Shown in pieces: positions 23,762 to 64,000 of a stretch of 64,000 bases of DNA; position 1 is the stretch's first letter, and each line of letters opens with the position of its first letter. The position numbers and the translations under genes are program-made. The notes under the pieces are model-generated. The model searched no databases and had not been told where the DNA came from. It worked only from the letters and a program-made list of their open reading frames with translations. This stretch comes from Branchiostoma lanceolatum (lineage: Eukaryota > Chordata > Leptocardii > Amphioxiformes > Branchiostomatidae): contig NC_089724.1 of assembly GCF_035083965.1 (NCBI RefSeq), positions 32,554,352 to 32,618,351 of the forward strand, in the 5' to 3' direction.

Positions 23762-26700
23762 TTACTCAAAGTCAAACTGCAGACCGGTTCCCTCCAACTT
23801 CTCCCTGTACTTGGCGTCATAAGCCTCGCTCTGAGCCCTCGTGAAAGTGTTCTTCCAGTCGCCAACTACACCTGCAATCACAAAACGAGGATACATGGAG
23901 CTAGTTTTTGGTAGAAAATGTTCGTAAGGCCACAGCAAGTAAATTTTATGGATGACATCCTCCGCAGACTCCAAAATTAATGAGATAGGGCGAAAAAAAA
24001 ACAAGGCGAGCCAAAAAAAACAAGATTCCTATATTTTCAAATTGTGAGATCATACGTGTTGTTAAACAAGAATTGAGGCGACGAAATATGATATCATGAC
24101 CAACAGGTTTTTTATTCCTGTATTCAACCAATGAGGTTTCATACATGATATATATATATAATATATAATATAAAACCTCCTTGATTTAATGTAAACATGT
24201 CCTTGTAGATGTGTATACATCTCAATAGACTAACTACAACAAATGCAGAAAAGAGCTTCTTGTACCATCCGAAGCAACTACACTGGGAATTCATATGCGA
24301 TGAAACACCTTGTGTATACAGCTCAATTAACTAGACCCCCCCCCAATTATCTATATAATGTCCTTGCTAGGACAAATGCAGAAAACAGCTTGTTATTATA
24401 CCATCATTGGCAGGAACTACACTGGGTAGTCATATGCAATGAAACACCTTAGACTGTCAACATAAAACTGTTCTTGAAGATGTGAATACAGCTCAATTAA
24501 CTAGACCCCCCCCCCCCCAATTATTTATATAATGTCCTTGCTAGGACAAACGCAGAAAACAGCTTGCCATACTAGCCTCCGTTGCAGGCTCTGAAGCGGC
24601 TTTTTTGGGGGCTAAATAATACACTTTTTGCAGCCACCCCATAACTATCAGCCATCCTGTAACTATCAGCCGTCTAGGGCCCCCAAAAAGCCGATTCAGA
24701 GCCTACAACGGAGGCTATTGCCATACCATCATGGGCAGGAACTACGCTGGGTATTCATATGCAATGAAACACTGTCAACGTTTATGCGACATATTTGCCA
24801 ATTTTTGGCATGTTGACCACCGTCGGAGGGCAATGAAATTTCTTGTTTTTTATTTCGAAATCAGGCGAAAATTAATGAGCGCGCTGATGTCATCTATAAA
24901 ATTTACTTGCTGTGGCCTAATGGGAGAATTATGAATTTTAACGTTACTTTTTATTTTGTGCCATACAAAATCTCTGACGTATCTGTTCTGTAATCAATAT
25001 TCAAGGCCGAAAGGGATCAGGGCGATTTGGCCCTTTACCAGCACCAACACTCTAGTCAACTCAGCCCAACACCCTGTTCATCTCGGTCAGGGTTAGGGTC
25101 TGGGTTAGGTCTAGGGTTGGGCTGAGTTGACCAGGGTGTTAATGTTGAGCCAAGTTGGTATGATTAGCCATAGAATGAGTTGTTACAAAGGGCCGAAACG
25201 TCAGACAACCGTCTAGTTACATGCAACATAGTTACAACAGTCCAAGACATTTCCATCAATCACAAAATATAAGTATCGGTATTGGTCAGTAACTATGCGC
25301 AACACAGCACAACACAACACAACACAACACAACACACATTTACACACATTAATGTCAGCACAGCACAGCACAAAACAATAACAACACAACGTAACTCAAA
25401 ACTGCACAAGACAAGAGTTCGAAGAACACAAACCTCCGTGAAATAGACATATAGTTCGGTGAAATCATGTTCAAGTTCAAAGTGTTGCTGAGTCTTGAAT
25501 GACGAATGCAGTCAGTTTGATCTTTGCATGATAATTACGTGTATCTAAGGTGCCCCTGTGATGATTGTTGATGTCAAATCAACGACCTTGAATGTTCTAT
25601 AGCGGTTTTTGTAATCAACGTCAGCGTCAACGCAACACAATACACCTCAACACAACACAACACACAACTACTTTATCATTTCGTGTTTGTAAGAATTGAG
25701 TTTGAAAGTCCACAATACTTCACCTTTCCTGACGATGAGACTTTTTGTTTGATTTCCCGACTCGGCCCAAGAAGCCTTCAGACTGGCAAAGGTACAGGAA
25801 TCCACAATGCTCGAAGTGGTGACGTCATCCAAAGTGATGTCCAAGAATTCTTTCATCTTCCCAACAGCACTGGATAAGTCCTTTGTGAAATCAATAATAT
25901 AGAATGTAATACAAATAAAACTATGAACTGTATCTATATACATGATAAATAACATACTACGGGCAATTTGCGGATGTCCCAATGGCTTAACAATGGCCTT
26001 AAGGAACGAACGAGCAGACAATGTATGAATCTTTAAAAGCTATAGCTAGCTAATCGAAACCTACATGTGTATATCCTTTTAAGAAAGCTTCCATCTTAGA
26101 CCTTTCAGAAATGGTCAATGTATGAAAATGTCTACTCGGATTCGCACCTTCTTCATATCTTCATACTTCAGAAAGAGGAAATGGGGGTCGTCTCGCATCT
26201 GCCACCAGCCAAGTGCGTGGTCGTAGAAGTCGCCATGTGGAGCTAGATATGAGGGAAAACACGTATGAAGTGTCATTACGTATTGGGTGTTTAACATAAA
26301 GAATTAAAACTTTTACACACGACTAAAGGTTGCTTGATGAAAAGTGAAGGTGTTTCCAAGTGACATCAAAGCCACCATGCTGATTGGTTGGACCCGGAGG
26401 AGTTTACACGTAACCGTAACTGCATGTACTAGTATTCAATTATGCAAGTATGCGTGCAATTCAATTAGACTATCCATCCATCCATCCATCCCTATATATG
26501 TATATGAATAACGTTATATATATAAATACTTTACATTTGGGACTGCATCTGTAAATAGCGACACCTGTCGCTGCAGTGCAAAGTGAATCAGTCAGGTTTG
26601 CCCTGGCCTGAGGAAGTCTATAAAGCTTGGTTTTCTATAAAGAATATTGTTATCCATTGTAATATGTACCTATCCCATTCAGAAAATCTTGAGCACACTT

Positions 26701-27972
26701 GTCCCAGGATATGACAGACTGTATGCCCGTCAGAACTTCGAACTTGGCAAGAAAATGGTACAGAGACACCGCCGTGTCTTTCGGGTTTCTCATCACGACT
26801 ATGACTTTCACCTGAAAGGAAGAGAAAGAAAAAAAATGTTCTGTCATATAATTCCACCGTACATTTCTTTCTGCATCTCTACAATTAGATAAACGAAAGA
26901 ACGATAAACAGTACTAGTATTACCGGAGCCTTTTATTCTGTTAACTAGATGTACGCATCTGCATCAGGCCATGAGGAAAAACGTACAGGTTTGCCTTAAA
27001 AGTGTCATTTATGTCGGGGGGGGGGGGGTAGGTTGCATGCTTTCTAGGAGTGAACATTGTATGCAGTTAGCATATATCTTACAATGTCAAACTCCCTCTA
27101 TAGGTCTAACAAAGTGGGAGAGAAATTTTAGAAATACAAAGAAGTTTAAGAAAAACAAAGCACAGAATACCTTGCCCTTCGGCTTGGAAATCTTTTTGGG
27201 AGCCAGGTGCCACGGAAGGTGTGTGTGAATGATCCTCGGCGATGGGTGGTTCTCCACAATCACGTGACCTGGCTTGCCAAATTCGGGCAACTTCCCTTCA
27301 AAAAACCACGGAATGTCTTTTGTCTGCATGTCCGTCTTCCCAGCTGCCCTCATGAGTTTGTTGACGATCTCGATGGTCCAGTTTGTGCCTGACAAAAAAT
27401 ATGCCCCACATTTTGTTTGTTTACTTTATTTACTTACTTTGTTACATTTATTGTGCTTGTTTTAAGTAAAGTCATTAGTTTGTTGTATGATCTTGAAGAA
27501 CAACATTTTGCTATGTAATTTTTTATCATTATTGTACCTAAGTTTGTTGTACCTTTGTATTATATTTTGTTACTTCAGTTTGTTCTGTTCATGTATGCCC
27601 GCAGGGCTCATTGAAAACCGCCCTTGTGGCGATATGTTGTCCCTGGATAAATAAAAATTAGAGGAAATGAAATGTTTATTTGTTTGTTTTAATAGGATCT
27701 ACATTAGTGTATAATGGGATTCATACTATTTTTTCTGGAGTCCGCTACAGTACAATAAAATATAATGTAAAGAACAAAAACGTATATAATTGATAAAAGT
27801 TGCATGCCGGATGTGACGTCACCCCCTTGTTACCAATCTTACCTGCTTTTGGATAAGTCAAAATGACGACGTCATCATCGCGTATGACGTAATCAGGCAT
27901 GTTGTCGAGGGTCTCTTTTGTAACCACACGGGGGTCAAAGAAAGCTCCTTTGTATTCAAACCACTGTTCCAT
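23762..27972 (-). CDS. Cytosolic sulfotransferase (SULT1-like), six coding exons
   Basis: Transfers sulfate from PAPS to small hydroxyl or amine substrates in the cytosol. Coding exons: 27843-27972, 27171-27388, 26670-26811, 26148-26242, 25724-25880, 23762-23871; 852 nt, 283 aa plus stop, usual family length. Motifs seen: the 5'-phosphosulfate loop TYPKAGTNW (39-47); catalytic His100 in HTHLP; the 3'-phosphate site RNPKDTAVS with Arg124 and Ser132; FLFLKYEDMKK before the exon 5/6 join; and the C-terminal RKGVVGDWKN (246-255). Oddity: the usual KTH around the catalytic His is HTH here. The start chosen is MEQWFEYKG. An upstream exon ending at 28645 can splice in frame to 28000 and would add a KKKKRHRYRKEVVK leader, so a longer N terminus or a 5'UTR exon is possible. 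Substrate cannot be told from sequence. Confidence 0.92.
24239..24765. repeat. Direct repeats inside TIR element
   Basis: Units starting acaaatgcagaaaa at 24239, 24373 and 24545, each with gaactacactggg, catatgcaatgaaacacc and poly-C aattatttatataatgtcc; the third is split by a MITE. Confidence 0.8.
24564..24718. mobile_element. Nested MITE with ~40-bp TIR
   Basis: tagcctccgttgcaggctct ... ttttttgggggc and gcccccaaaaagccg ... gcctacaacggaggcta are inverted. It interrupts the third direct repeat unit. Confidence 0.85.
25047..25145. repeat. Short inverted repeat (ggttgggctgagttgac)
   Basis: aacactctagtcaactcagc at the left and gctgagttgaccagggtgtt at the right pair around tandem ggttagg-like text. 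Sulfotransferase intron 6/7 region. Confidence 0.7.
25297..25345. repeat. (ACAAC)n microsatellite
   Basis: About eight acaac units; similar short runs follow to 25400 and at 25626-25668. Confidence 0.9.
27480..27670 (+). mobile_element. LINE 3' end in sulfotransferase intron
   Basis: The block ending cccgcagggctcattg, cttgtggcgatatgttgtcc and ctggataaataaaaatt looks like a LINE 3'UTR and tail. It lies in the first coding intron of the sulfotransferase gene (between 27843 and 27388). Confidence 0.5.
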
Positions 27973-28804
27973 CTTCACAACTTCTTTGCGATATCGATGC
28001 CTGGAACAACGTAGATAATGAAAGTTACCAGCTCTTGTAGTTAATATGCTAGTCTTTGAAGCTAATGACAAAGTCTCTTTAATATGAAGCCGATTACATC
28101 CTGGATAAGGAAGTGCCCCGCACTGTTGCTGCAAATTGAGTGGCCCCCATTGCTACATAATCATATAAAAGTCCTAGACTGTCTAGAAGTTGAAATTCGA
28201 AAAGAAAGGCAGGAGCAGATTAGCATGGTACTGGTCAAAATATTCAAATATATTTCTTATCGTGTCCCAAGAGACATCATCAAGTACTAGTAATTGGTTT
28301 GCTTTTCTTGCACCACCTGTTGAGATTTTGTCATTTTTCATAATCATATTCTCATCTAAACATTTCAATTTCAAACTGTCTCATCGTCGTTCAGGTATGA
28401 CAACATTGAAAGGAAGATACCATATATTGTAGCATATTGGAAAACGAAGGCAGGCAATGTTCCGAAAATTTGCGTGCATGCATGTACGATCACGACCTGC
28501 TGGAAAGTCGCAAACAGGTGAGCAAGAAGTAAAAGAATCAGCTTTCTGACTGGCATGGGTCAATACAACACTACAACCGTTACAATTCAGTGTGGTAGAA
28601 TTACAGTAATCAAGATATACAATCTAATCGTTAAAAGTACTCACCTTTTTTTCTTCTTGGGAACAACGAGGATGACTTCGCATGGATGGCATGCAAGCTG
28701 TCTTGCTCTAGTTAGCAGGTCTTGAGTCAGGTTACATGATCCGCTGGAGGCGGGGTAAAATTGCTGACCCCCAGATGAACTCACTGGGTTGCAGATAGGA
28801 TGTG

Positions 28805-30105: not shown

Positions 30106-31233
30106 TAAAGATCAACTTGAAAATATAAGTCTACGACAAAGAAAGAAACCATAATTAGATGATAACCGAAGTAACGATAACTCAAGAGACTAGAAATATT
30201 GAATCAAACATAATGGAGAGTCAAAGCAATGAAACAAACTTTTAAGTGTAACGGAATTTGCATATCAATGTGTAAATTATAGGAGAACTCATATCAAAAA
30301 TCACTCTAATAATCAAATCATATTATCAAATAAAAACAAGTAGAAAGCATACTGATTCATTGAAGAGTGAAAGGAACGTGTGTGTGTGTGTGTGTATATG
30401 TGTGTGTGTTTGTGTTTGTGTCCCAAAGGTCATCCATATGATCAAATCAACATGGAGTTATGCTCAAAACGTGCAACGCTTAATTAAGAAATACAATTGA
30501 AAACTAAATTGACGTTAGTCGAACTCCTCTCCGTGTTCTATATATACGGCAGTAGTATGGATATCCTTAAGTTCCTGGGTCTTATGCCGATAGTCCGTGA
30601 CTGAAGCTATGCTAACACTGATGGTACCAGGACTAACTTCCCTCCTTTCGCCATACCACTTTTGTTATCATTTATCAAAGATCGGAAAATGCCAGTCACA
30701 GGAAATGGGATAAATGAAACAATTGTCAACTTCAGCACCACAGACAGGTGTATGTTTGTGTTTGACAGATGTGGTGTTCACAACATCAGGGACAGATATG
30801 TCTGTATGCGGACGGTGTTCAGTACCATTGTGTGTCTAACACGTTTTGTGTTCAGCTTCAATGGCAGATATGTAAGCGTGTGCGTTTGTGTATGTCTGTG
30901 ACTTTGTGTATGAGTTTGTGTGTGAATTTACGTAACGTTAGTGTTCAGCGCCAGGGACGCACCGTATTCTGCGTGATCGAGCCTTATTGATAAAAGCCAT
31001 GAACGACAATCAGTAGTAGAACTACAATTAACTGCTGTCAAAGACATGCTCATCAAATAAGCGGGTCAAAAGCGTCGCCTAGCAATGTTTACTAGAAGTG
31101 CAAGAGTTCGAAGTCAGGCATCGTATAAAATGCTCACCAGCACCGCGAAGAGGTGTGTTTGTGTTTGAAAGTTGTGGTCTTCAGCATCAATAACACGATG
31201 AACACCACACACACGTGTCTCTCTTTCTCTCTC

Positions 31234-31368
<135 letters not shown>

Positions 31369-31371
31369 GTT

Positions 31372-32985
31372 GCCAACACACACGAAGTTGCCAACACGAC
31401 CAACGCTGACCTGTGTCTCGTTTCCGACTGGTTCCTCGTCTGGGGATTGCAATTACACCCTGACAAATGCAAGGTTATGTGCATCAAGGCTCTTCAGAGC
31501 AAAGTAAAATTGCCCCCCATTTACATAGCAGGAGAGCTTGTTGAAGAGGTGACCTGCTACACACATCTGGGAGTCACAATTCACTAAACTCTGCGTTGGA
31601 AGGAACACGTAGAAATTGTCTCCAGCAAGTCGAAGAAAGTGCTAGGTTCGCGGCGAAGCAAACTCCAACGTAAGCTACCTCGTGAAGCCATGGGGATTGC
31701 CTACAACACTCTTGTGCCCACGAAGCTAGAATATGCTTCGATCCTCCTTAGTAACATTAGCACCACTGCGAGCAAGTCTCTTGAGCAAGTACAGTACCAC
31801 GCGGGACGCCTTGTCTCAGGTGCGATGGTACGCACGCCTCAAGGTAAACTCCAGGAAGAACTAGAGTGGGATAGTCTCGCGGTCAGAAGAGACTACCACA
31901 GACTGGTGATCATGCATAAACTAGTATCAGGTTCTGTGCCATCTCACCTCCAGCTGTTGATTCCCACCACTAGAGGCAGTCAAAGACCACTGAATCTTCG
32001 CCTACGGAATGACACACACCTGCATGTTCCCTACTCCAGAAACAAATACCTACAAGAACAGCTTCGTTCCATATACTACACGTCTATGGAATAGCCTTCC
32101 AAAGGAAGTGAAGGAAGCCGTATCCTCCAAATCAGTTCAAGCAGAAGTGTCGAGCCCACATGTTGTCACCTCGTCATCACCAGAAGTTCCGCAGGCTTGG
32201 TGACCGCCGCAGTAACATTCTTGCGACCAGACTACGTCTTGGCTGGTGTCAGCTCAACTCCACGTTGGCCAAGTTCAACCTTACCTCTCGGAGATGTACC
32301 TGTGGTGCGACATCCGAGACAGTCACACACTTCCTTCTTCACTGCCCCCTGCACGCAGTGGCACGGCAATCACTAGCAACAGTAGTGTATCACCTCTTGG
32401 AACGACCCCTTTCCACCAACCTCCTCCTCAACGGGTCTCCAGACAATGACACCACCTTAAACAAAAGGCTCTCAGACTCCTTGCATACTTATATCATCTC
32501 AACGAACCGATTCTAGGTACACCTTGGGTACAGTTAGTCCGTGGACAGAATTGAAATCGTTCTTAACTAAATTAGACAACTCCAAGTACTTTTAGAATCA
32601 TCGATTTTTTCTATGCACGTTTGTTGACACTTCCACCCGTTCCTCCTAACCTGTGTTGGCTAAACATGTCCTAGTGTTGTGAGACAGTCGTGAAACATTT
32701 ACACCTATATCCTGAACTCTGACCTCCGAACAAATTTATGTACAAATCTTTCTGATCCAATTCTCATAGTCTGTATTTAAGTATTTTAAGGACATTTATT
32801 GATGTATAACTGAGTTGTATGACCAATTTTAATGTTAAGTTAAACTGTATCATAACTTAGTTAAGTGTAATTTGCTATTCATACATTTGTGTTTTTGTCC
32901 CTGTAAATGTTGGCTCTCGAAATCAGCTATGCTGCCTGAGAGACTGCGTAGTGTCTTGTTACATTTGCAAATAAATAAAATAAAT
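31372..32985 (+). mobile_element. 5'-truncated, decayed non-LTR retrotransposon (RT C-terminus)
   Basis: Reads as the end of a LINE reverse transcriptase: DWFLVWGLQLHPDKCKVM, then TCYTHLGVTI, an in-frame stop near 31585, LEYASILLSNIS, and AGRLVSGAMVRTP. A frame change near 32070 gives RLWNSLPKEVKEAV, and a second near 32150 leads into RLGWCQLNSTLAKFN and a Cys/His motif CTCGATSETVTHFLLHCPLH typical of LINE C-termini. It ends in an A/T-rich tail (aaataaataaaataaatt). At least one stop and two frameshifts; inactive. The 5' end abuts a (CA)n tract. Confidence 0.85.
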
Positions 32986-36050: not shown

Positions 36051-37429
36051 AACAATAGACCGATCCTGACTGTCTATCACAATTAGCAGTCCGACCAATC
36101 GGCATGGCAATTAGCGGTTTGACCAATGAGAGAGTGGCTGCATATCCTCTAATGTTATCGGTCCCCCAAACGTGCGAAATGGAACGAAATGGAACGAAAT
36201 GGAACGATAATATTAAATACAACGTTTTTGCCGCGTTTGTGTGGCCAGATTCTTCCCTGAAAATGGGAGCGCCGCGTGCAAAGAGATCCACCGCTCTTCC
36301 TTGATTTTACCAACTATCTGCAAATGAAATGCTGCAAATAACAGGGAAAACCAGCAAACGGAACGGAGTATCGAAGTAAGGACTAGATTATACAGAAGTT
36401 GGTGGTAACATTGCATCTCATAATTCACCAAGAGGGCATGAGGCAAGCGTAATTTCATTATTTATACAGCGTGTTTGCGTGTTGTGTGAACCGTGAAATA
36501 CATATCCCTCTCGTTCACACCCTCCCTTTGTTTTGTCGTGAACAAGGAAGCAGAAATGTCTCTAGAGATAGTTCTCAGTCCACGTCCGTGATTGAATGGA
36601 GTGTGAAATGTCACACTGGTGATGCAGCGCAGAGCTGCATCATTAACGGAGGGGTACATTCTCCGACAGCCGACGAGCCGAACAATTGGTTGTATAAAAA
36701 TCGTTGTTGCGGAGATATGCATATGCTACGCACTAGTTATGGACTAAAACCATATGTAAATAAAACAAGTCGGAGTTTGATTCAACCTGTCAGTAGCACG
36801 CACATGTGCTCAGTTCCGATGCGCTGGTAACATTGGCGGTTCATTTGCATGCGGGGCTCCATTTGCAAAACGCAAACACGCTGTATAAATAATGAAATTA
36901 CGCTTGTCTCATGCCCTCTTGGTGAATTATGACATGCAATGTTGCCACCAACTTCTGTATAATCTAGTCCTTACTTCGATACTCAGTTCCGCTTGCTTGT
37001 TTTCCCTGCTATTTCCAGCAGTTCATTTGCAGATCGTTGGTAAACGCAATGGAAGAGCGGTGGATCTCTTTGCACGCGGCGCTCCCATTTTCAGGGAAGA
37101 ATCTGGCCACACTAACGCAGCAAAAACCTTGTATTTATTATTATCAAACAGATTCAAGAAATAAAACACGTTATATTATGTATTTTCTTCCTGTTCCCGT
37201 CTACTGTGAATGTTACAACGTTCCTGATATTTCGCTTTCTACTGGTATTTCATTTCATAATGTTACATAAGTTTTAGTTTGTTCCATTTCGTTCCATTTC
37301 GTTCCATTTCGTTCCATTTCGTTCCATTTCGCACTTTCGGGGGACCCTAATATTTGAATGTTTATGTTTCTATTTTGCATTTGTACATTTTGACAGAGGT
37401 GGGCGGGGCTATGGGATCGGTCTATTGTT
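36051..37429. mobile_element. 1.38-kb foldback element
   Basis: Outer ends aacaatagaccgatcc and its inverse. Internal arms 36160-36480 and 36862-37346 are close reverse complements (for example gaaattacgcttg and caagcgtaatttc), the right arm carrying about 130 extra bp. Arms end in (ggaacgaaat)n: three units at left, five at right. No ORF with a known domain. The end motif also occurs at about 5816-5828, 12085 and 51866. Confidence 0.85.
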
Positions 37430-44700: not shown

Positions 44701-47700
44701 AAATTTTGAAGTTAGGTACAAAATTTCAAATCAAAGTTCGTAAGAGAACATTCTACTTCATTTTATGTTGTGCACCCAAAATTCTTTCAGTGCACCTAAA
44801 TTTTCAGGTTAGGTGAATTTGGAGCCCTGTTTCTTCTGCCCCCCTGCCCCCTTGTGTCAACCGCAAACTTTAAACCACAGCGAACATTTTCACCCTACTG
44901 CAAAATTAAAAACTTAAAGCCTTTCGCAGTGTGCTCCAAAATTTGCTAACGAGAATGTTGACATACTTGTAAGAAGAGCCAGTACTTAAAAAACAATTTT
45001 TGTGATTTCTTTTCTTCCAGAATTCATTGATGTTGGGAAGAAGCAGCCAGCTCTTGATGCTCTCTATGATGTCATCAAGAGCAAAAAGCATCGAACATGG
45101 CAGAAGATCCACGAACCCATCATGAAGAAGTACCTGGAGCTGTGTGTGGACCTGCGCAAGAGTCACGTGGCCAAGGAGGGACTGTACCAGTACAAGAACA
45201 TCTGCCAACAGGTGAGCAAAAAGCAGTTGTTGCTACTCCACCCACAAAGCAAATATTTCAATACTGAACGCAACGGAAGTTGAGAAACGAAGAATTGTAA
45301 GAACATAAATTCCAATGTGAATTTAAACAACTGCACCCGCAAATTATTCTATATGTAAGCCCGTGGGATACAAGTAGAAGCCTGTTGGATATTTTTAAGG
45401 AATTTTATCAAATATTTAGCCGCTCAGCCTCTAGTGGAAAGGGGGTGTTGTTGAGATATGTAAAAATGTAGGTTATAGTAGTGAAATGTGACAGATAAAA
45501 GCCAGTAGGTCGCATTAATTGTGTCAAGTTTCGTTCTGCAAGTGCCAAATGTAGTCCCATAGCCTTTTTGAGGTCGTGGGTTGTTATCCACTCTAGTCTA
45601 GAGCATGGTATTGGAATGCAGAGCCCATCCCTCTCCTTCCACTGCCTTTTATACCTCTCCAACCGAAGTCAAGTATCCATTTTTACACTTGGATGGAGTG
45701 AGAAATGTGTTTCCTAAGGGTACAACGTTGGTGTCACGGGACTTGAACCTAGGTCCTCTGGGTTCTGGGCCAAATATGCCAACATGATACCACTAAGTAC
45801 TGAAGGACATGATTGTAAGAACATTCTTCCCTCCTGCTGTCCTACAGGTGAACATCAAGTCCCTGGAGGATGTTGTTCGTCAGTACCTGAGCCTAGCGGA
45901 GGAGAGGACGGAGCAGGCCCGCTCCTCCTCCCAGCAGGCTGTGCTGGACATCGACGACCTGGAGTCTGAAATCTACACCCCAGAGCTGTACGTCACATAT
46001 CACCTGTACTTAAGCGGGTATCTCCTGGACTGCGCCTGGAAAGTGGCACAGACCAGTGCCAATGAGCCCAATGTGGTGCATGAAATTACGAATTGTTTAC
46101 AATTATTTAAAAAAATTGTGATTGGCAAATGGGCGCCAAACATTGAACATCCTTTTATTACTGCAAGTGTCAACATTTCCAATACAGTTGTCTTGTATCG
46201 AAACTGAGAATGTGACATTCCGGGTTACGACCATTTTGTTTGGCTCATCTGGGCTTCATATACAAATCATCATCATCAGTAAGTCATCCATATACAAATG
46301 CTGCGCATGTCAGTGTGACCGCAAAGGAAAAGTTCCTACCACAATTTGGCACAGTCCAGTGAGGTATTTACTTGAACCCTTTTGCTGCTAGTCAAAATCA
46401 AACCCGTCAAAATTTAGAAATGCAAATGAAAATGCAAATATCTAAAGGACGTGCAGCCACACTCTCATTGAATGAACCACTAGTTGCCATGCTGTCATTG
46501 GTTGAACTGCTAATTGTGATGGACTGTCAGGGTTGGTCTATGTGAGTAAGGGAAAAAAGTCTGCCTTCTCTGATGGTCTTGTTTTTGGCAAGGCCTCAGG
46601 GCGGCCTAGCCCAATGGTATATAGTATGGTGTGCAGTTTGCAAGAATTCCAGGAATTCAACAGGTATTTCTTTGGTATGTCCAGTCATGTATAGTTAACG
46701 TCTGTTTGTATTTTGCCCGTGCCAGTCTGTGATGGCCATAGTGAGTTTTTTCAATGAAAATTGACAACTTTTTTCGTTTGCTTCCTTTGCAGCCTTCTAC
46801 TGAGTGCAGTGAGCGGTGAGGACATCCAGGCGCGACACGATCGCCTGATGCTGACCCCCTGGGTCAAGTTCCTCTGGGAGTCGTACCGCCAGTGTCTGGA
46901 CCTGCTGCGTAACAACTCCCGTGTGGAGCGGCTGTACCAGGACATCGCTCAGCAGGCCTTCCAGTTCTGCCTCAAGTACAGCCGCAAGACAGAGTTCCGC
47001 AAGCTCTGTGACAATGTAAGCATGCACTTACAAGTTTTTCAGTTGAAGTCCCGTCACACATTCATCACCTTCCCATGACTTTGCACCTATTTCCAAAAAA
47101 GACATTCAAGCCCTGATGTGGACCATCTGGTAGGCCGATAAAACATATACAATGCCACATACAAACCCTACACTCTAAATGTACATCTTTGTTATCCCAG
47201 TTCAGGGTTCGAAATTCATTTTTGGAAATAGGTGCACTGGTGCACCCAACCAAAAAAAATTAGGTGCACAGAAAGAATTTTGGGTGCACCACATAAAATG
47301 AAGCTGAATGTCAGCAAAACATAATTACAAAGTTTATTGCTACTGCCTACATATTCTAAACCTAACTTTAAAATTTCAAACAAGTAACACATCAAATGAA
47401 GTACAGCAAAAGGTTATATTGCTTTTTCTGATACTGTACTCACATTTCAAGAATATTCCGTATACTAGTAGTGTACAATTATAGTACCTTTACCCTATAG
47501 CCTACAAAAATATCTAGGTGCACTGGTGCACCCACAGTCAAAAATTAGGTGCACAGGTCCAGTTTTGGGTGCACACAGGTGCACATGCACCCAGTATTTC
47601 GAGCCCTGCAGTTGTTGACATCTGCTGTTAATCACTTTTCAGCTGCGAAGCCACCTGCAGCAGGTGCTGAACCGCCACCAGACCCAGTCCACTGCCATCA

Positions 47701-50700
47701 ACCTGAACAACGCGGACAGCCAGCAGCTGTTTCTAGAGACGCGCCTGGTACAGCTGGACTCTGCCATTACCATGGAGCTGTGGCAGGTCAGTATACCCCC
47801 AACATTCACAAATTAGACATCAAAAATCTCAAACCTCTAGAATATTCCAGGTTTTTGTAAGTTTCTTATCTTATTCATTATTGTAAATTTCTCTCTCATA
47901 GGTTTTGTCTATGCATTGTCTATGCTCCCATAAGACACAAACATGCACATTGCACGAAATAAGATATATTTGATAACTTAATATGGGATCTTCCTTTCAA
48001 TGTCCCTGGCATGACTAACATGTTGATATGGAAACACACACAGACAAACAATCACAATCAACAGCTCCTTTTTAATGTAGTTAATAAAAGGAAAAACACC
48101 AAAAGTATTACTCTCCTTCTATTATTTTATTTGTCACCATTAAAGCAGTCATTCTTCAGATTAAAGGTTTTTGTCGCAAGGCAATCCAATTACCTGTTCA
48201 GAAACCTATATTGGGGTTCACACGGGTCTACATTTGAAAAGCAAACAGTGCTTAATCATTATGATTGAAAAGTAGGATGATAGGATGATACAGTAGTTTG
48301 CTTTGACGGCTTTTCCAGAAAAACTTTTTTCTGGAGTCGCTTTGCAGCGAACCTTAGATCCCCACTCAAGTCGTTGATGAAGAAATTGATGGTGGTTGTG
48401 CTTAGGAAGTTTTTAAGTTAAATATGTTGTCTCTCCCTTAACAGGAAGCATACAAGGCTGTGGAGGATGTATGGCAGCTGATGAACCTGTCCAAGAAGCC
48501 CCCCAAGCCTCAGCTCATGGCTAACTACTACACCAAGCTGGGGATGGTGTTCTGGAAGTCTGGTAACCAGCTGTTCCACGCCTCCGCCCTTCACCGCCTC
48601 TTCCACCTGTCCAAGGAGCAGAGGAAGAACCTCAGCCAAGACGAACTGCAGAAGTCAGTACTGTACATCTTGAAATGTTCACCGTGGTTTTATTTTTGCC
48701 GAGGAAAACTTTTAGGGAAGATGAGCTAAATTTTTGTTTCTAATATTACTACTATACTACATAGCTCAGAAAATGGGCAGCAAAAAATCATTGCACCATG
48801 AGTTAAAGTAGCAGATTACAGCCTTTTGAATGACACCGTGAACATTGTATAGTGTTCTTTTTTTCATGTACGTAAAGGTATTATTGTACACTAAATGTAA
48901 AATACATTGTATGTTCCTGACATTTAAGTGTCGTGAAAAATAATAAAAGCTTTGTTGTATTTTTTGTCTAAAACTTCAAATTTAGCAGTGAAATTTCAGA
49001 TTGAAGCTCTGAAGAGAGACAGTTTTGTAATTAGGTTTTGCTGACATGCTACTTCATTTTTGTTGTACACCCAAAAACATTTTCTGTGCACCTAAATCTT
49101 TATTTTCATGCACATATGCACCTTTTCCTCAAAAGTGACTATAAGCCCTGACATCTAGCCTGAGTGTCCTGTTGTTATTTTCCTGTAGGATGGCGTCCCA
49201 GGTAGTCCTGGCTACCCTGTCCATTCCCATCTCCACCCCTGCCACAGAGTTTGACAAGCTGCTGGACATGGAGGGTGTTAGTATGGAGAAGGCACGCCGC
49301 CTAGCAACCCTGCTGGGACTGCAGGGGCTGCCCACCAGGGCCTCCCTCATCAAGGACATGGTTTGTTTGTTTGTCTCTGTGCTTGTTTGAGCCTCTGTTT
49401 ATTAATGAATGAGCCTGCGGGCTGCTTCTCATTGAGGTCAGAAGGGGAGGGGTAAGGGACAGACAAAATGCAGCATAGATACAGATTATGTGATTGAAAT
49501 CCGAAAACAGCTAACTTCTGGTTTATCTATCTTGTGTTCTGGTCATAACAAGCTGTGGTCATAATATTTGGTGGTAGATTTTATTTATTTCAGTGTTTGT
49601 CATGTAATGTTAGAAAGTTAAGCCTGTTTATAATGCTATTGACCAACACAGATGAACTTTCATGCTTTGACCTACCTTGTTGTGTCATGTTTAGGTGAGG
49701 TCGGGTGTCCTGCAGCACGTTCACCCCCAGCTGCAGGGCCTGTACGAGTGGCTGGAGGTGGAGTTCCACCCCCTCAAGCTGAGCAGCAGGGTCGCCAACG
49801 TCTTCAACTTCATCCTGTCCGCCAAGGAGCTGGAGCTGTCGCAGTACGTCCCCGCCCTGCAGAACGTCACCCTCATGCGGCTTGTGCAACAGGTGGGTAC
49901 CGTAAATTCATTTATTTTCGCAGGGCCCTTCGATTTGGGGCAGGAGTTCCAAACAATTATGTAATAGAGTAGTAATTGAAATACACATATTTGCAGTGTT
50001 GTGAATTTGCAATGGAGAGGTCACTGCAAAAATGGAACCACTGCAAACATTTCAATATTTACAGTATTGAGCTGTACTTGCATTAAGTTTAACTTAAGCT
50101 CCTGCAAAGGATTTCCTTTGTTTTTGAAAACATTACATGAAACTAGTACTGAAAATCTTGAAATATTTACAGTATTAAGTTTTGATCCTAAGTTTGTGGA
50201 TTTTGTACTCCCTCAAACAACAACTTCAGATTTTGTATCTTTTGTCTTGGACAGGCTGTGGTCTTGATTTTTAAGTGGCAGATTTCTTTTAATGTTAGGA
50301 GGGTGGTGTGGGTCTGTGACCCCTAGCAGCTTTCTCTGGAACATATTTTAATTGAACAAGCACAAAGTCAATGGTACACAAATGAAGAATTCTTGTAATG
50401 CATTCATATTCCCTGAATAATAGGTGTCGCAGGTTTACCAGACGATCCAAATGTCGCGCCTGGTGGCCCTGGCTCCGTTTGCCTCGTCCTTCCAGCTGGA
50501 GAGAGTCGTAGTGGAAGCAGCCCGGAATGGAGACCTCAAGGTTCGCCCTCTCTTATTCCTCACTCTTTTCTTCTAATGTTTCCTCGAAAGACTTTAAGAC
50601 TGCACAACAGAATTTCTGTGGTTCCTGAAATTTTCCCTGAATTTTAAAAAAGACTGTAGGGAATATATTAGGTAACCTGAATATTGACACAAAACATTTT

Positions 50701-53700
50701 GTGTTTGAATATTTATATACGAAAATTCAGCAAGAAAGGTTGAATGAAAACAGGTCAGGGGAAACAGTAGACCCATCCAGCTGTCATTCAAATATAGCAG
50801 TTCAACCAATAAGAGAGCAGATACATGTTGGTCAAAATTTTGCTTTTGTAAATTTTTGTTTCACTTTGTTTTTGAGTTTCACGGGCTTAGGCACAGCTAT
50901 AAGATGAGCCTACTGAAAGTGTGTAACGTGCATGTGTACTAAGGTTTTCAGACCTTCCCCTCTTAATCTTACAATGTTTTTTAAATCCAAGAACCATCAA
51001 ATTGAATTGGTATAGCTAATGCATTATGCATTGATTTGAAGTTAACATGATCTTGTAGGTTCGTCTGGACCACTGTACCAAGTCCTTGCGGTTTGGAGAA
51101 GAGGTTGGGCTGTTCTCCAGCGAGGAGATAACAGAGTCGGAGGGCCCCACCCTACAGCCCCTCCAGTCCGAGCAGTTTAACCGCCAGCTGGTGCAGATGT
51201 CCGTGGCTCTGAACTTGGCCGTCTCGGTCGTTCAGCCTCCACATCTCAAGGTGAACATCGTTTTCTATGTGTCAAGGTTGATAAGTCATTAAATCTACCA
51301 ACTCTGAACTCTGCTTCCTGTCACTCCCACAACTCTGCGTTTTTGCAGTCATATCCATATGCTAGGCAAGTCTCACCACAGAGTGACAGGAAATGGTCTC
51401 ACCACAGAGTGACAGGAAATGGTCTCACCACAGACTGACTAAAAGTGAAGGTTCCATAAGGGGAGTTGTGAAAGTTACAGAAAGAGTTCAGAGTTGGTAG
51501 ATGTGATGTGCTGTGTCAACATTGTGTGACAGCTGACAGACATTCCAGGTCACGGGGTCAATCAAAGAGACCACCAATTTACAGGGAGGTATTGTATTGT
51601 CTGTTAATTTGTGTGTTTCACAGTTGTATATTGTCCATGTTAACCATACAGTGATTAGTAGTGATCAAAACCTTGTTTGCATAATTAATCTTTTGTGTTG
51701 ACCTACAGAAGGAGCATGAAGACCTGCAGCTGAACTGCGTGGCCGCGTACCGCAAGGCTGCCCGCCAAGAACACCTGCACATCCTGGCACGGCAGAGAAC
51801 CATCGAGGAGCGCAAGGAGAAACTAGAGAACCTCAACATGCAGAGGGTGGGTCAGACATCTTATGGACTGATCCTGACTGTCCATCACAGTTAGCTGTTC
51901 GACCAATGATAGCATGGCAATTGGCAGTTTGACCAATGATAGCATGGCAGAGTGACTCCACTTTCATAATGTTTTTTTATGCGTATCTATGTTTTGACAT
52001 AAGTGGGTAGAGATATGGACTCATTTATTGTACATAAAAGTGATCTTAGAGCAGTTCTACATAGGAGGGGATGGTCTGGGGGCTTAGTTTGTGTCAACAA
52101 GAACAGATTTTGGATTGTGCACTCCCTAGCCAAAGCTAGGTATTCATTTTCACCTGAGCCAATTGAGGAAATAGGTGTTAAGTGCCTTATGACAGCAATT
52201 GGGGCCTGCTAAGGATTCGAACCCAGAACCTTTATATTCCAAGTCTACTAGCCACCATCACACTTCACCTCGTTGGAGGGTAGGGATGTCTCCGTAGCTC
52301 AACTGGTTTTGCTCCAGTTTCCAGTTAGTTGCTAACAGGGAGACTCTGGTCCAATCCTGGAATGGGCATCTCGGTTGGGACTGCACCCGTCTTCAGAAGG
52401 GACATGAAATGGAGGTGGAGATGGTGCCTGGAGCATGTTAAATAGGAAGGGCTAGCGACCCCTCCCTGTAGAAAATGTACCCTGCTACTGAAACAGCAAT
52501 GAGACTTGCTGACCTGTGTGCCACTAGGCACTACAACTTACACAAGGGTCTGAACAAACTAACATCAGAGGATAACCTGCTTTGATGCTTTTGACCCCTA
52601 CAGGAGGAAGAAGAGAAGCGTGCACAGGAAGAACAGCTCCGTCAGCAGAAAGAGGCGGAGGAGGCGCGCCTCGCCCAGGAGGCCCAGGAACGAGAGCGAC
52701 AGCGGCGCCTGCAGGAGCGCCGGGAAATCCAGCGCAAGCAGGTTCAGGAGCGGCTGGACATCCTCCGCAAGTCCAGTCTAGGAGCAAGGGCACTGAAGGA
52801 CATCGACTTAGAGGTACAGTACAGATCTCCAGGAACTTTCCATCTAGTCGTGTTCAAAATGTGTTTGAAGTCCTGCAATTCCCAATTTAAATGCAAGCAA
52901 AGGCTTTGTAAAACGCATGCTTTTCTTCACGAAATATTTTTAGGTATGCATGTAAACACGTTTGGTTATGTGTGCAAATTTGTGTGGGCAGATTGGTGCA
53001 CAGCCAAAACCTGTAGGAAGAAATTAATAGAGTTCAGACACACCACTTTTTATTCATAAATATTTTCTAGACACCAGTGCAGAATACCCCTGCAAAAGTT
53101 TGGGTTTACACAGAAATATGCCTCTTCTCACATGCAATTTCCAAAGACAGTACATGTTGCATGCTCAGATTGTATAAACTTTCACTTTGCGCATGCCACT
53201 CCGACCTTACTTTACCTTCACAATTCTCCTCTGTAGGACATAGATGAACTGGACCCAGATGCCATCATGCAGAAGCAAGTGGAGCAGTTAGAGAAGGAAA
53301 AGAAGGAATTGGCCGAAAAACTCAAGGCCCAAGAGAAAAAGGTTTGTACATAAAGCATCTATATGTTGTATTGTCAACATTGTATGTAAGTGTGTGTGTG
53401 TGTGTGTGTGTAAGTGTGTGTGTGTGTGTGTACGCGTGCACATGTGTGTGTGCAGGCTATTAGATAGGATGTATAGACATGACATCCAAAAAATTGGATT
53501 TCCCAATTGACTATGGATTAAAAATTACCTGGTAGCTCTGCATGTCAGGAAACAGGGCGTCCTCTGGGTGTCCCCTGCAAAAGAAGGGCATCAAATTTAT
53601 TTGTTTTCTTATTGTAGGGCATCCAGAAGGTGCCCTGACACCTTGCTAGCTAATACTTATAGCCTGTTTGTGTGTGTATAAATGTGTGTGTGTGTTTGTC

Positions 53701-56700
53701 TATGTATTTTTGTGTGTGTATTTGTTTCCATGTCACTTCAAATTAAAACTTGTTTTTGCTAGCCACTTGCCTATCATAGAATAAAACATTTGCAAATGAC
53801 AGTTTTACCTGCTGCGACTGTTTTACGAGCCCTAGTCCTGGTTGTGCCCCACCTGTGCTGCAGGTGGATCATTTTGAGCGTGCCAAACGTCTTGAGGAGC
53901 TTCCCTCCCTGCAGAAGAACCATGCAGAACTCCTGGAGGAGCGCAGAGTCACGTGGGATCAAGTAGAGGAGGAGAGGGTAAGCAAACTAATTCAGCTTTG
54001 TTTTTTATCTAATCTCTTGGCTGAAGACTATTTTGGTGGTACGAAAGATCTAGCATGGGATGGCCCTTTGGCTTAACTGGTAGCAGCCTCACAGTTGAGC
54101 TGGTTCCACTTAGTTGGTAACTGGGAGACCTCGGGTCATAACGTCTAGGTTGGGGCTGCACCTGGTCGATGCCTCACCGCAGAACGGCTCACTTACTTCT
54201 AGTAGGATGTTTCATTGCTTTGATTATTACTATTTCAAGGGCTCTATTTTGAAAATGTAGGCATCTTGTTTTTTTGGCCTATCTTATGTTTATGTGCTCT
54301 CGCATTATATTTGGAGTCTGCTGGGGATGTATGTATAAACTAACTTGCTCTCCTTACCGTATAAATCTGGCCTAACTGGAAAAATCTGGTCTGAGCTCGG
54401 TGTATAGATTACTACCTCGACTGAAAACCGTATGATTTCTGGACATTCTCTTAAGTTTATATCTTTCTAGTGATTATACTATACTGGATACCACTACTAC
54501 TACCCTGGTCTAACACGATGTTCTCTCTACAGATCACAAACCTGACAGAAGAGCGCCAGCTTGCTCTCCAGCACAAACACCGCATGGCCTGCATGATGGA
54601 GGACAAGGACAAGTTCATCAACATGCTGAAGGACTCGCGCAAATCTGTCTTCAAGGTGAGGCTGCAAATACGGTAAAAGGGGAATTGTTCGCAGTGGTTT
54701 TGTTTGTGGTTTTCACTGTGACCTTGTTACCACAAACTTATAACCACGGCAGATATCTTTTTGTCTTCTGCCCGCCTACCCCCTTCTTTCAACAGCAAAC
54801 TGAAAACCACTTAACACATTTTATTTCTACCACAAAATTGAATCCCGGCAAACATTTCTCCTTTTGCAGTATCTGGGCTCCAATTATCAGACGTTTGTAC
54901 ACCAGTTTGTTAGTGCACACACACACACGCACACACACACACTAATTTCTCAAAATAGTTCACAAAAACAATGGCAACAACTAAAACATGAGATTGAACA
55001 TCTCCTACGTCTGAATTATTTCTAGTTTTCATGGATTACTTCATTTATTCATTACTGAATCTACATGTAATGCAGTTTTCCCACTGGCTCCCATAAGGCA
55101 ACAGACATGCATATTGCAGGAACTGAAGACAGAAAATGAGATAACCTATTCTGGGACCTTTGACCTAACTCCCTATCAGTGTACCCAATGTGCCTAGCAA
55201 ACCAGCCACTCGACTGCATTCTAACTAGTACAGATAACTAACAGACACAACGAAAACAGAACCTTGGGACATGGGGGTAAAAATGACAACTTGAACTACA
55301 GACAAGTTAACTACAGACACACAAGCAAACACACAGACAGACACACCAAAAAGAAAACCTCCTTCCACAGAGGTGATAAAGGACAACTTGAACTGAGTTA
55401 TCAACAAGTCGAGTGGAGCAAAAAGATGTCAAAAGCTAGTCATTTACATGCTTGTACAACATTTTAAGTTCTTACCAACAACTTTTCTTTCACCCAGGAC
55501 AAGATAACGGCCTTCAATGCCCAGCTGGCCACAGAGCGAAAGAAGCGCCTCTTGCAGAGGAAAGATCAGCGGAAGGAGGAGCGCCGGCGCAAGTGGCTGG
55601 AAGAGAAGGAGGAGGAAGAACAACGACGTCGCGACGAAGAGCTCATACGAGGTATGAACTGTATTCTTGTTACCTCCGCGAAGGAGGTTCACCTCCTACG
55701 GGGGTAGGGTTCTAGCTAGCTTGAAATTTTTTTCCATCATCCCAATTCCCATGGACAGAAAGGTCCTACAAAGAGTCAGAATGGTCTAAAAAATTTCAAT
55801 CACATGCAACAAAATTTGTCAATTGGTGGAATGACGGGTGCTGGCTAAAATCCTGTAAGGGAGTATTGCGATTGATTGTTCGTAGCTATTACTCAAGATC
55901 CCTTTGATGCATTTGTTTGTACTTTGTCATGTTGTCTGCTAGTATGGGCGAGATGATGCACACTGATTTTGGGCACGGTAGCAGTATTTCTAGATAATGA
56001 AACATCACAGACAACACCCCTATCTTGATGGCATTATGGTGTAGCTCATTAATTTATTCCTTCTAGAATTCTGATGTGTGCTCTATTTGGTATCTTGTTT
56101 TACATTTTTACTCTGTCCAATCAACGTGCTCGGACCTCGAAGTCGAATCAGCCATGACCAGACAGATCGCCTCCTAGCTCACCTAAACCAAAGTTACCAA
56201 ACCCACCTATTCCATGTGGGATGGTGTCAGCTTTTTATTTGTAGACTGTCTTCAGTTTGATAATTGTGGCAGTTCGGAAATGAAATGATCCGCGCAGTCG
56301 ACCATCACTTATGTTAAAATGTTTAATGGTAGCTTCTTTGAGAACTGCCACAATTTTCAATCTGAAAAGAAACCAGGGTGTCTTCTGTAGTTGAGCAATC
56401 CGTATTTGTTGTGTTTATCAGAACGAGAGCAGAAAGAGGCGGAAGAACAAGAGCAGCGCGAGAAGGAGGAAGAAGCATACCGAGCCAAAATTGCACAGCT
56501 GGAGGCAATCGCCGAGAAACAGCGCCAGCGGGAACGGGAGATCGAAGAGCGAGAAGCTAAGAGGAGACAGGAGCTTCAGGAGGAGTCGTCAGGACGGGCC
56601 CAAGATGGCGGCAGGGACGACTGGCGCGCAAAGGACGGGCTGGGAACTCGGGACGAGGGGCCGTGGAGAAGAAGGTTAGCAGTTCTCACCTTCTACATCT

Positions 56701-57995
56701 GTAGCAAATACTGTAGATTCACTTATTTTCTCAAATTTCATGGTAGAAGAAGGAAAGAGGTTTTAAGTTTGCAGTTGAAACACTTCTGTGATACATTGGA
56801 AATGTCAAAGAGAAAATAAACCACTGCAAATATTTCAAGGTTTACAGTAGTGTGGCAATGTATGTTGGTGCCATTGACAACAGCTAAGGAGAAATATATA
56901 CAGGTTTTCAGAACTAATCTAACATTATTTTTATTGGTTTTGGAGTGTCAGTAGCAGAAGAGCTAACATCAAGGACTGAAGGATGAAAGTGATGTTATGT
57001 AACACATCATATTGTGATAAATTATTACCACAAAGACAAATCAATATATATATTGACAGTTTCAAACCACTAAGGATCATGTAAAAAGTTTTATGTAGTT
57101 TGACAACATTTTACTGTTCCTCTGCAGAGGTGACGATGCCCCACGCAGTAGAGATGTGGAACCACAAGCCCAAGAACCCTCTCCCGCGAAACAGCCATGG
57201 AGACCGTCTGGCCGTTCTAGCTGGCGTGATAGGGAGCAGGGCGGGGGCATGAGAGACGGGGCCCCCACTGATGGCCGTTACCCTCCCGACGACAGCGGTC
57301 CTCGCCGCGACGACTGGGAAAGGCGCCCACCGGTGGATCGTGACAGGCGGCCGCCTTACGAAGACGGGGAACGCCGCCCGGATGATCGGGACCGCAGAGG
57401 TCCACCTGAGGAACGCTGGAGGGACGCCGACCGTAGACCGGCACCCCGGGATGACAGCGACTGGCGCCGCGGCCCAGTCGAGCGTAGCAGCTGGAGGCAG
57501 GATGGTCCGGGACGGGACGATCGTGACGACTGGCGCCGCGACGGGCCGAGGAGGGACGACCGCGGTCCTCCACCTCGAATGCCACCAGCTCGGGATGAGC
57601 GCGAACGTAGACCACAAGACGACGACTCCAACTGGCGCAGAGGAGAGAGAGCCCCCGCTGCAGACGATCGTGAGAGGTGGGGCGGACGAGAAGACCGCGG
57701 TCCCCGCCCAGGTCAAGACAAATGGAGGGATCGTGATGATCGTGGCCCCCCGAGGGGTTTCGACCGAGACAACCGAGGCCCACCCTCCAGAGAGGATCGT
57801 AGTTTCCCGTCCAGAGGATATGATCGTGACGGCACTCCTCCGTCCCGTAGGTTCGAGCGCGACGACCGTGGGATGCCAAACCGTGGAATGGACCGTGATG
57901 AGAAGGGTGGTGAACCGGAGGGTGGGATGCGCAAGGAGAAGGACAAGTGGAGGAGCGAGTCAGACCCCGATGGCTGGACGACCGTCAAGCGTTGA
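41722..57995 (+). CDS. EIF3A: Translation initiation factor eIF3 subunit a, 18 exons
   Basis: Largest scaffold subunit of eIF3, binding the 40S ribosome and organising the PCI/MPN core. Exons: 41722-41770, 45021-45211, 45848-45987, 46793-47015, 47643-47786, 48445-48653, 49189-49360, 49695-49892, 50424-50540, 51059-51250, 51709-51846, 52604-52813, 53237-53341, 53864-53977, 54533-54655, 55498-55651, 56422-56674, 57128-57995; 3600 nt, 1199 aa plus stop (human 1382). Seen: the conserved N terminus [16 protein letters not shown]; helical repeats including [16 protein letters not shown] domain about residues 320-500 (exons 7-10); a long charged coiled coil from about 546 to 890 (KEHEDL ... REREIEERE); then an Arg/Asp/Pro-rich tail of degenerate DDRGPRR-like repeats and a final GWTTVKR. 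The tail is shorter than in mammals, which explains most of the length gap. Exon 9's donor (GTTCGC) is weak. The ATG fits the family start exactly. Confidence 0.97.
43016..43407. mobile_element. hAT-like MITE with 8-bp target duplication
   Basis: TIR cacccttctaaaagcaggac and its inverse at the right; arms about 75 bp. gacagggg flanks both sides (43008-43015 and 43408-43415). 392 bp, EIF3A intron 1. Confidence 0.88.
43869..44256. mobile_element. MITE, TIR tactgtagattnatttattttc
   Basis: Left tactgtagattgatttattt, right caagatttacagta; inside, cactgcaaaaactggg. Same family at 49899-50066, 56709-56849 and, diverged, 54669-54870. EIF3A intron 1. Confidence 0.7.
44494..44830. mobile_element. MITE, cagggctcgaaat TIR family (gtgcacc-rich)
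   Basis: gttcgaaattctgggtgcat at the left and ggagccctg at the right, with repeated gtgcacc/ggtgcac blocks near both ends. Sisters at 47203-47608, 48960-49150 (partial) and 62570-62640 (partial). Confidence 0.7.
46019..46367. mobile_element. MITE of the ggcacagtccagtgagata family in EIF3A intron 3
   Basis: Left tatctcctggactgcgcc, right ggcacagtccagtgaggta. It starts only about 30 bp after the exon 3 donor (45988). Confidence 0.8.
47203..47608. mobile_element. MITE, cagggctcgaaat TIR, best copy
   Basis: TIRs cagggttcgaaattc and gtatttcgagccctg; cagtt flanks both ends as a 5-bp target duplication. Subterminal ggtgcactggtgcaccc palindromes. Ends 34 bp before EIF3A exon 5. Confidence 0.82.
48960..49152. 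mobile_element. Partial copy of the gtgcacc MITE
   Basis: ctacttcatttttgttgtac then cacccaaaaac, tgtgcacctaaat and aagccctga match one half of 47203-47608; it lies just upstream of EIF3A exon 7. Confidence 0.6.
49899..50066. mobile_element. MITE, tactgtaaattcatttattttc family
   Basis: Left taccgtaaattcatttattt, right ttcaatatttacagta, only about 6 bp after the exon 8 donor of EIF3A. Confidence 0.75.
51270..51600. repeat. Inverted/tandem repeat in EIF3A intron 10
   Basis: ctaccaactctgaactc (51296) and gagttcagagttggtag (51485) are inverted; between them tctcaccacagagtgacagg-aaatgg is repeated in tandem. Same family as 39290. Confidence 0.65.
52284..52565 (+). mobile_element. tRNA-derived SINE in EIF3A intron 11
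   Basis: gtctccgtagctcaactggt head, ggtccaatcctggaatgg B-box region, gggctagcgacccctccctg body and gccactaggcactacaac end. Closest to full length on this strand. Confidence 0.8.
54058..54225 (+). mobile_element. SINE head fragment in EIF3A intron 14
   Basis: ggcttaactggtagcagcc and ttggtaactgggagacctcg match the SINE head; B box degraded (gggtcataacg); no 3' body. Confidence 0.65.
54669..54870. mobile_element. Diverged MITE of the same family
   Basis: tacggtaaaaggggaattg, gcagtggttttg-tttgtgg and ccgcctacccccttc; right end less clear. EIF3A intron 15. Confidence 0.5.
56262..56359. repeat. Short inverted repeat in EIF3A intron 16
   Basis: ataattgtggcagttc and gaactgccacaattttc are inverted, about 65 bp apart. 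Confidence 0.55.
56709..56849. mobile_element. MITE, tactgtaaattcatttattttc family
   Basis: Left tactgtagattcacttatt, right ttcaaggtttacagta; EIF3A intron 17. Confidence 0.75.
57240..57930 (+). repeat. RD/RP-rich degenerate repeat region of eIF3a tail
   Basis: Within the last EIF3A exon, the protein repeats short units such as [22 protein letters not shown] and DRDDRGPP without fixed spacing. This matches the decapeptide-repeat tail known in vertebrate eIF3a but is more degenerate. The GC-rich, stop-poor DNA also opens long meaningless frames on both strands. Confidence 0.8.
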
Positions 57996-63138: not shown

Positions 63139-63346
63139 CAGCCTGGATGGGGTAACCTCAGTTCCAATCGAAGTTTGACGAATTTCTTTCTAGGAAAATA
63201 ACACCAACTGTGTTATCAAGTATTAAATGGACTTGCGATGCAATAATAAATGGTTACCATAAGTTACAGGCAAATTATGTCTTATTCAACTTTTGCCCAA
63301 GTTTCTACAACATCTGAGAGGATCACTTATTGTTTATTTGTTACTT

Positions 63347-63621
63347 TTAGTACATCAAAACGTCTTCACTCGGTCGTTCCTTCATGCTCCCGCTTCTGTT
63401 CTGGAAGACGGAGCGTATGTGTTTTCCCGACAGGTACACCAGCCCCTCGTTTACGAGGAAGGCCGCCAGGGCGCCCACGACCAGCCAGTACGAGTAGCCG
63501 AACCCCGAGGTCTCGACGTAGAACTTACTGCCGATCTCCGTCTGTGTGAGGAGGCTGTTGCCGCTCAGGTACAGGTGATACAACACCGCATACAGGATCA
63601 GGCACACCAGGCAGAACACGG
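63347..63621 (-). CDS. Clarin-like four-span membrane protein, last exon only
   Basis: Terminal coding exon of a minus-strand gene that continues past the right end of the window. Acceptor at 63622 (ttctgttgcag on the minus strand), then 90 codons plus TAA. It encodes a hydrophobic span (VFCLVCLILYAVLYHLYL), a loop (TQTEIGSKFYVETSGF), a second span (YSYWLVVGALAAFLVNEGL) and a short cytosolic tail ending DVLMY. The loop-plus-YSYW span order and the terminal LMY match the clarin family (CLRN1-3, linked to hair-cell and photoreceptor membranes in vertebrates). Spans would be TM3 and TM4 of the fold. Which clarin it is cannot be told from one exon. The next intron begins directly with a minisatellite. 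Confidence 0.7.
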
Positions 63622-63900
63622 CTGCAACAGAAGGTGGAACAGCGTTACAACTACTACAACATCTACAACACTGTACACAACACCTGGCAGAACACAGCTG
63701 GAACAGAATGTGGACCACTGTTACAACCACTACAACATCTACAACAATGTACACAAAACCTGGCAGAACACGGCTGCAACAGAAGGTGGAACACTGTTAC
63801 AACCACTACAGCATCTACAACACTGTACACAACACCTGGCAGAACACAGCTGGAACAGAATGTGGACCACTGTTACAACCACTACAACATCTACAACATT
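63602..63900. repeat. 76-bp minisatellite, alternating A-B-A-B units
   Basis: Unit starts at 63622, 63698, 63774 and 63850, exactly 76 bp apart, last one partial. Units 1 and 3 (ctgcaacagaaggtgg) are closer to each other than to units 2 and 4 (ctggaacagaatgtgg), giving a 152-bp higher-order repeat. Each unit holds a copy of the clarin exon's 3' splice acceptor with the first bases of the exon. Confidence 0.95.
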
Positions 63901-64000
63901 GGATATTTGGAGTTTCTTTTAACACAACCAGGTAATCTCACCTGCTGATGTTTTGGTGTCTGTCTGAAGAAGGTGTCTGACAGACACCGAAACGTCAGCA

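Follow-up and report, generated by a model that had tools for sequence, protein, structure and literature searches.

Mirage minisatellites have been described in lancelets in Adh3, in the globin genes BflGb6 and BflGb9, in TnC and in PGBD5 (PMC3087553, PMC3902484); the second of these papers adds PGBD5 and mentions troponin C. Their units are given as 10-160 bp long and present in few copies (PMC3087553), and as far as the accessible text of the two papers goes they are reported not to disturb regular splicing (PMC3087553, PMC3902484). Repeats that carry splice signals could nevertheless serve as cryptic sites according to PMC3087553, which calls the mechanism of mirage formation unclear. The same source cites the Rogers model and later surveys for the gain of introns from tandemly duplicated segments containing AG/GT (PMC3087553).

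The window analysed here, a stretch of 64,000 nt from Branchiostoma lanceolatum (NC_089724.1, positions 32,554,352 to 32,618,351), holds near its right-hand end a minisatellite that crosses the boundary between an intron and the probable terminal exon of a clarin-like, minus-strand gene (Table 1). Taken as a whole, the locus is very probably best explained as a mirage-type array that arose by duplication between two TGTTGTA words and is mostly neutral, with its decoy acceptors tolerated.

Table 1. Coordinates, within the window, of the array and of the features of the adjoining clarin-like exon
Feature	Positions	Strand	Basis
Probable terminal coding exon, clarin-like: 2 bases of a split codon + 90 codons + stop, 275 nt	63347..63621	-	Open frame, phase
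AATAAA, possible poly(A) signal, just 3' of the stop codon	63333..63338	-	Sequence
Minisatellite, 76-bp units, 3.9 copies, A-B-A-B, across the intron-exon boundary	63604..63898	-	TRF, unit comparison, repeat search
Inferred true splice acceptor AG, copy 1	63622..63623	-	cag/CCGTG before the only long open phase; score 10.8
Decoy acceptor AG, copy 2, type B	63698..63699	-	Score 8.2
Decoy acceptor AG, copy 3, type A, with the 23-mer of copy 1	63774..63775	-	Score 10.8
Decoy acceptor AG, copy 4, type B	63850..63851	-	Score 8.2
In-phase TAG after 10 codons, decoy copy 2	63663..63665	-	Translation
In-phase TAG after 10 codons, decoy copy 3	63739..63741	-	Translation
In-phase TAG after 10 codons, decoy copy 4	63815..63817	-	Translation
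9 nt of the exon (+19..+27) absent from all three intronic copies	63595..63603	-	Gapped comparison
TGTTGTA, exon +37..+43, block edge in the exon, proposed microhomology	63579..63585	-	End of homology
TGTTGTA, -49..-43 of the farthest copy, block edge in the intron	63892..63898	-	TRF array end coincides

TRF describes the array both with a period of 76 bp (3.9 copies, 89% matches) and, over the same interval, with a period of 152 bp (1.9 copies, 96% matches), and the two periods bear out the A-B-A-B order of 76-bp units that an earlier note on this DNA had proposed. The note had also placed a splice-site signature in each unit. This 22-base signature of the array, TGGCAGAACACRGCTGSAACAG, occurs four times in the window at up to three mismatches and in none of 100 dinucleotide shuffles; as all four matches lie in the array, a repeat dispersed through the window is rejected. 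The array ends 102 bases short of the end of the window and so is not cut off. Between the two, at 63943-64000, shortly before the array as the gene is read, lies an inverted repeat with arms of 25 nt that are 88% complementary and 8 nt apart. It is possibly the end of a mobile element; its 26-nt core has no second copy in the window at up to three mismatches.

The copies are numbered from the exon side outward on the gene (minus) strand, copies 1 and 3 being of type A and copies 2 and 4 of type B. The first 'exon' base after the four acceptor copies is at 63621, 63697, 63773 and 63849, respectively. Comparison of the units was confined to the 67 columns common to all four copies, the nine columns from -58 to -50 being excluded because copy 4 is unmatched there. 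Over these 67 nt copies 2 and 4 are identical, the pairs 1-3, 2-3 and 3-4 differ at six positions each, and the pairs 1-2 and 1-4 at eight each. Types A and B are distinguished at -18, -12, -4 and +2. Four changes are private to copy 1 (-31, -22, -21 and +13) and two to copy 3 (-38 and +17), with none in copies 2 and 4. Since copies 1 and 3 have the C of the exon at +2, type A is the nearer to the parent sequence. As regards homogenisation, for which the 67 columns offer few sites, copy 1 would suit a boundary copy left out of the process, but the copy at the other end, copy 4, is the same as copy 2.

The contribution of the exon to the unit is larger than had been supposed. The units were said to start exactly at the splice site and to include the first 12 or so exon bases, whereas the array reaches 18 nt into the exon ungapped, where 16/18 positions match each decoy, and about 43 nt into it when one gap of 9 nt is allowed after +18. 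With this gap, exon positions +1 to +43 match copies 2, 3 and 4 at 29/34, 28/34 and 29/34 positions. Gap lengths from 0 to 24 were tried: a gap of 9 gives 13/16, 12/16 and 13/16 matches past +18 for the three copies, and each of the other 24 lengths gives at most seven. The segment from +19 to +54 is best placed at offsets of -85, -161 and -237 (22/36, 21/36 and 23/36 matches; next best, 18), which are the three units displaced by 9, and its 23/36 match to the intron was reached by 0/500 dinucleotide shuffles, their maximum being 22. For the 16-mer from +28 to +43 alone the score was reached by 9/500 shuffles, and for +28 to +60 by 34/500. Where 13/16 positions match past +18, seven of the matches are TGTTGTA itself, and the other nine positions give 6/9, 5/9 and 6/9. 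Agreement among the three intronic units counts once, as they are copies of each other. A limit of 18 nt to the exon part of the unit is rejected, 16 more positions being recognisable beyond the gap. At the gap the exon contains an imperfect 9-nt tandem repeat, TGCCTGGTG TGCCTGATC (7/9), and the gap length is a multiple of three; slippage, towards loss or gain, could plausibly have occurred on this repeat.

The same word stands at either edge of the duplicated block. When the 60 nt that precede the far acceptor are compared with exon positions +1 to +60, TGTTGTA is the longest word in common; the farthest copy, which adjoins unduplicated intron, agrees with the other copies from -49 on. A further TGTTGTA at -40 of the far copy means that the breakpoint in the intron is not unique. 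This arrangement suggests a microhomology-mediated tandem duplication between two TGTTGTA words, which would have copied the last 49 nt of the intron and the first 36 nt of the exon, together 85 nt, into the intron. A slip that removed 9 nt from the copy, or a gain of 9 nt by the exon, would then account for the 76-bp unit (85 - 9 = 76). Units A and B may subsequently have diverged, and the A-B dimer may have doubled to give A-B-A-B. The simplest history that we infer from the copies would begin with a single duplication, followed by divergence of A from B and doubling of the dimer. Against the simplest form of dimer doubling, copies 1 and 3 differ at 6/67 positions although both are of type A, which is no fewer than the 6 or 8 that separate A from B; it holds only if copies 1 and 3 gained their private changes (4 and 2) themselves.

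The identity of the gene as a clarin is probable. The exon is read as CC, then GTG TTC TGC, to a protein end of ...SEDVLMY, and its other two phases meet a stop after 7 and 31 codons. Clarins have four membrane segments; the single exon that lies within the window has two hydrophobic stretches, at residues of about 1-20 and 40-64. In local alignment the exon scores 42 against a human CLRN1 sequence entered by hand, which was reached by 6/1000 residue shuffles and 37/1000 block shuffles, and 39 against human CLRN2, likewise entered by hand, which was reached by 7/1000 and 11/1000. The last clarin exon has about 87 codons and a protein end of ...DLMY, to be compared with 90 codons and ...DVLMY here, and we take the intron at c.433 of CLRN1 to be the one that precedes the final exon of the 232-aa form. 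In human CLRN1 the change c.433+1G>A is entered in a table of PMC8074154; as 433 = 3 x 144 + 1, the intron interrupts codon 145 after its first base, and CLRN1 and the exon here share a phase-1 intron. The gene is probably a clarin, with about three chances in four. The earlier description of the exon as clarin-like is probable in that intron phase, length and protein end agree, but finds no backing in the database searches, which gave three weak matches in Pfam and one in the PDB sequences, with no clarin among them.

A control for duplicated splice boundaries is provided by the gene for eIF3a (translation initiation factor 3 subunit A), which lies on the plus strand at 45017-53926 and probably extends to 57995, its exons being taken from PDB sequence matches. 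Twelve introns of about 330-810 nt were placed between 45211 and 53864, with junction 3 set by hand. A weak further match to eIF3a lies near 55471-55650, and the reading frame at 57099-57995, for which there is no Pfam match, is presumably part of the same gene. For each splice site, the surrounding 36 nt were searched for within 800 nt on either side. At the clarin-like acceptor 34/36 nt recur 152 nt upstream, a level reached by 0/100 shuffles. The 24 mapped eIF3a splice sites yielded no duplication within 800 nt (0/24), the best match being 21/36, which was reached by 6/100 shuffles. Judged by these eIF3a sites, boundary duplication is rejected as a general property of the locus. One intron of eIF3a contains a tandem repeat at 51370-51439 (26-bp unit, 2.7 copies) with GTGAGAC on the minus strand, which does not fall at a mapped eIF3a splice site.

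Elsewhere in the window, sulfotransferase-like exons are present at 25668-28149 on the minus strand, with a PDB match to amine sulfotransferase (E 8.7e-07) and a sub-threshold Pfam match to Sulfotransfer_1 (E 0.00026). Reading frames at 31129-32513 on the plus strand, which resemble the end of a non-LTR reverse transcriptase, include one with a sub-threshold zf-RVT match and have a CA repeat in the first frame. There are other tandem repeats: one at 8731-8857 consists of 41-bp units, each near-palindromic, and two arrays about 1.1 kb apart, at 36175-36207 and 37281-37331, share one 10-bp unit and are oriented oppositely (CGAAATGGAA / GTTCCATTTC), each adjoining similar GGGGGACC sequence. Rfam at the gathering threshold and a tRNA scan found nothing in the window.

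The acceptor of the clarin-like exon falls at 63621/63622, the position that had been put forward for it, as judged from the reading frame, and the idea of tandem look-alike acceptors in the intron is likewise sustained, there being four in all, the presumed true one and three decoys. Their strength was gauged with a weight matrix made from the 12 mapped eIF3a acceptors of the window, a small set that compares local signals only, by which copies 1 and 3, with identical 23-mers, score 10.8 and copies 2 and 4 score 8.2. The 12 eIF3a acceptors themselves range from -1.9 to 12.5 when each is left out in turn, and among all AGs of the window on both strands (n = 7563) 0.4% reach 10.8 and 1.3% reach 8.2. 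Further AGs within the units score 8.8, 8.8 and 7.3 (TGTAG/ATG), so that the competitors at the end of the intron number more than three. Scores of this kind show no more than a failure of local signals to separate the true acceptor from the false ones. The equality of decoy 3 and copy 1 in local score counts against the decoys being ignored. Signals within the intact exon are the likely reason for the choice of the copy 1 acceptor; the spliceosome would normally take the acceptor followed by the intact exon, with the decoys being tolerated.

The consequence of using a decoy can be read from the phase that the exon sets (two bases, then GTG). In this phase the decoys read GTG TTC TGC CAG GT(G/T) TTG TGT ACA (G/T)TG TTG TAG, and copies 2, 3 and 4 all translate as VFCQVLCT(V/L)L followed by a stop, a total of 10 codons. 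The exon reads TAT at this point, whereas the last G of the TAG is the first base past the common word; it is therefore the junction itself that creates the stop. The suggestion in the earlier note that a distal acceptor would add repeat-coded residues with frame shifts fails on this point, all three decoys stopping after 10 codons, and an extension of the protein through the decoys is ruled out by the stop in each. Because each decoy gives practically the same truncation, the number of copies would not tune an extension. If used, a decoy would end the protein at this TAG and remove its C-terminus together with the second, and last, hydrophobic stretch. Junction-dependent nonsense-mediated decay is not expected for a stop in the last exon; as the exon here is probably the last, mRNA made with a decoy would probably escape it.

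This outcome bears directly on whether the array could act as a splice switch that depends on copy number, in which regulated use of decoys would yield a clarin cut short before its last hydrophobic segment. Such a switch would have suitable parts, in that the 23-mers of copies 1 and 3 are identical, the scores of copies 2 and 4 lie inside the span of real sites and practically one truncation results whichever decoy is taken; the possible cryptic use of repeats with splice signals raised in PMC3087553 also speaks for it. However, every decoy destroys the end of the protein, published mirages are, in the available text, reported without effect on splicing (PMC3087553, PMC3902484), and the identity of copies 2 and 4 points to a recent doubling rather than to long conservation, so that a regulated switch seems very unlikely. 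A graded form is also very unlikely: each added unit would bring a near-equal acceptor and a junction-made stop, and copy number would set the share of truncated clarin lacking the last membrane segment. Were it true, any boundary duplication of this type would contain a truncating stop from the outset. Regulation by copy number seems unlikely; little speaks for it apart from how good the decoy acceptors are.

It could also be asked whether the number of units is real, since joining two alleles of an A-B array head to tail in the assembly would give the same order. Copies 1 and 3 differ at 6/67 positions and copies 2 and 4 at 0/67, and allelic divergence in lancelets is of this order of magnitude. 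A and B, however, differ at 6 or 8 of 67 positions, which makes at least two units probably real; the unit is shorter than usual reads, and 63300-64000 contains no other direct-repeat family, the flanks there not being duplicated. An artefact of assembly is highly improbable. The least probable reading is that the units are raw material for a new intron or for a 14-nt microexon, an acceptor and CCAG/GT being found in each intronic unit. AG/GT is indeed present in all three intronic units and intron gain from mirages is modelled in the available part of PMC3087553, yet the donors score only 2.2-2.9, near the bottom of the leave-one-out range of 1.4-9.0 for the 12 eIF3a donors, an exon of only 14 nt is very short to be recognised, and the frame is shifted by either one or two such inserts. 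A mirage-type array with tolerated decoys remains the preferred explanation, and its function, we infer, is mostly neutral.

The probable clarin gene would be one more among the few genes recorded as having a duplicated splice boundary; among the matches listed from open-licence papers there is no report of a mirage in a clarin gene. The clear edges of the array suggest a start by tandem duplication between short words common to intron and exon, which is a prediction for all other mirages. The array may also be seen as a natural test of how the spliceosome chooses among near-identical acceptors.

The Rogers model, as cited in PMC3087553, has a duplication around splice signals supply the boundaries of a new intron. 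The units here also hold AG/GT, but where that model yields a new intron none is seen here, and the duplicates lie inside an existing one. The array may be classed as a boundary-spanning minisatellite of the mirage kind, a membership that rests on anatomy. Like the mirages described in the accessible text, it is a tandem repeat across an intron-exon boundary with few copies, and its 76-bp unit falls in their 10-160 bp range. In BflGb6, as far as that text describes it, the 3' end of the intron and a 5' part of the exon have been copied together with the splice signals, which is the anatomy found here, and the boundary copies of BflGb6 stand apart from the homogenised inner ones. From the published mirages, in the parts of the reports available, the array differs in its clarin-like gene, in its A-B-A-B dimer, in the 7-mer at both of its edges and in the stop codon made by the junction itself.
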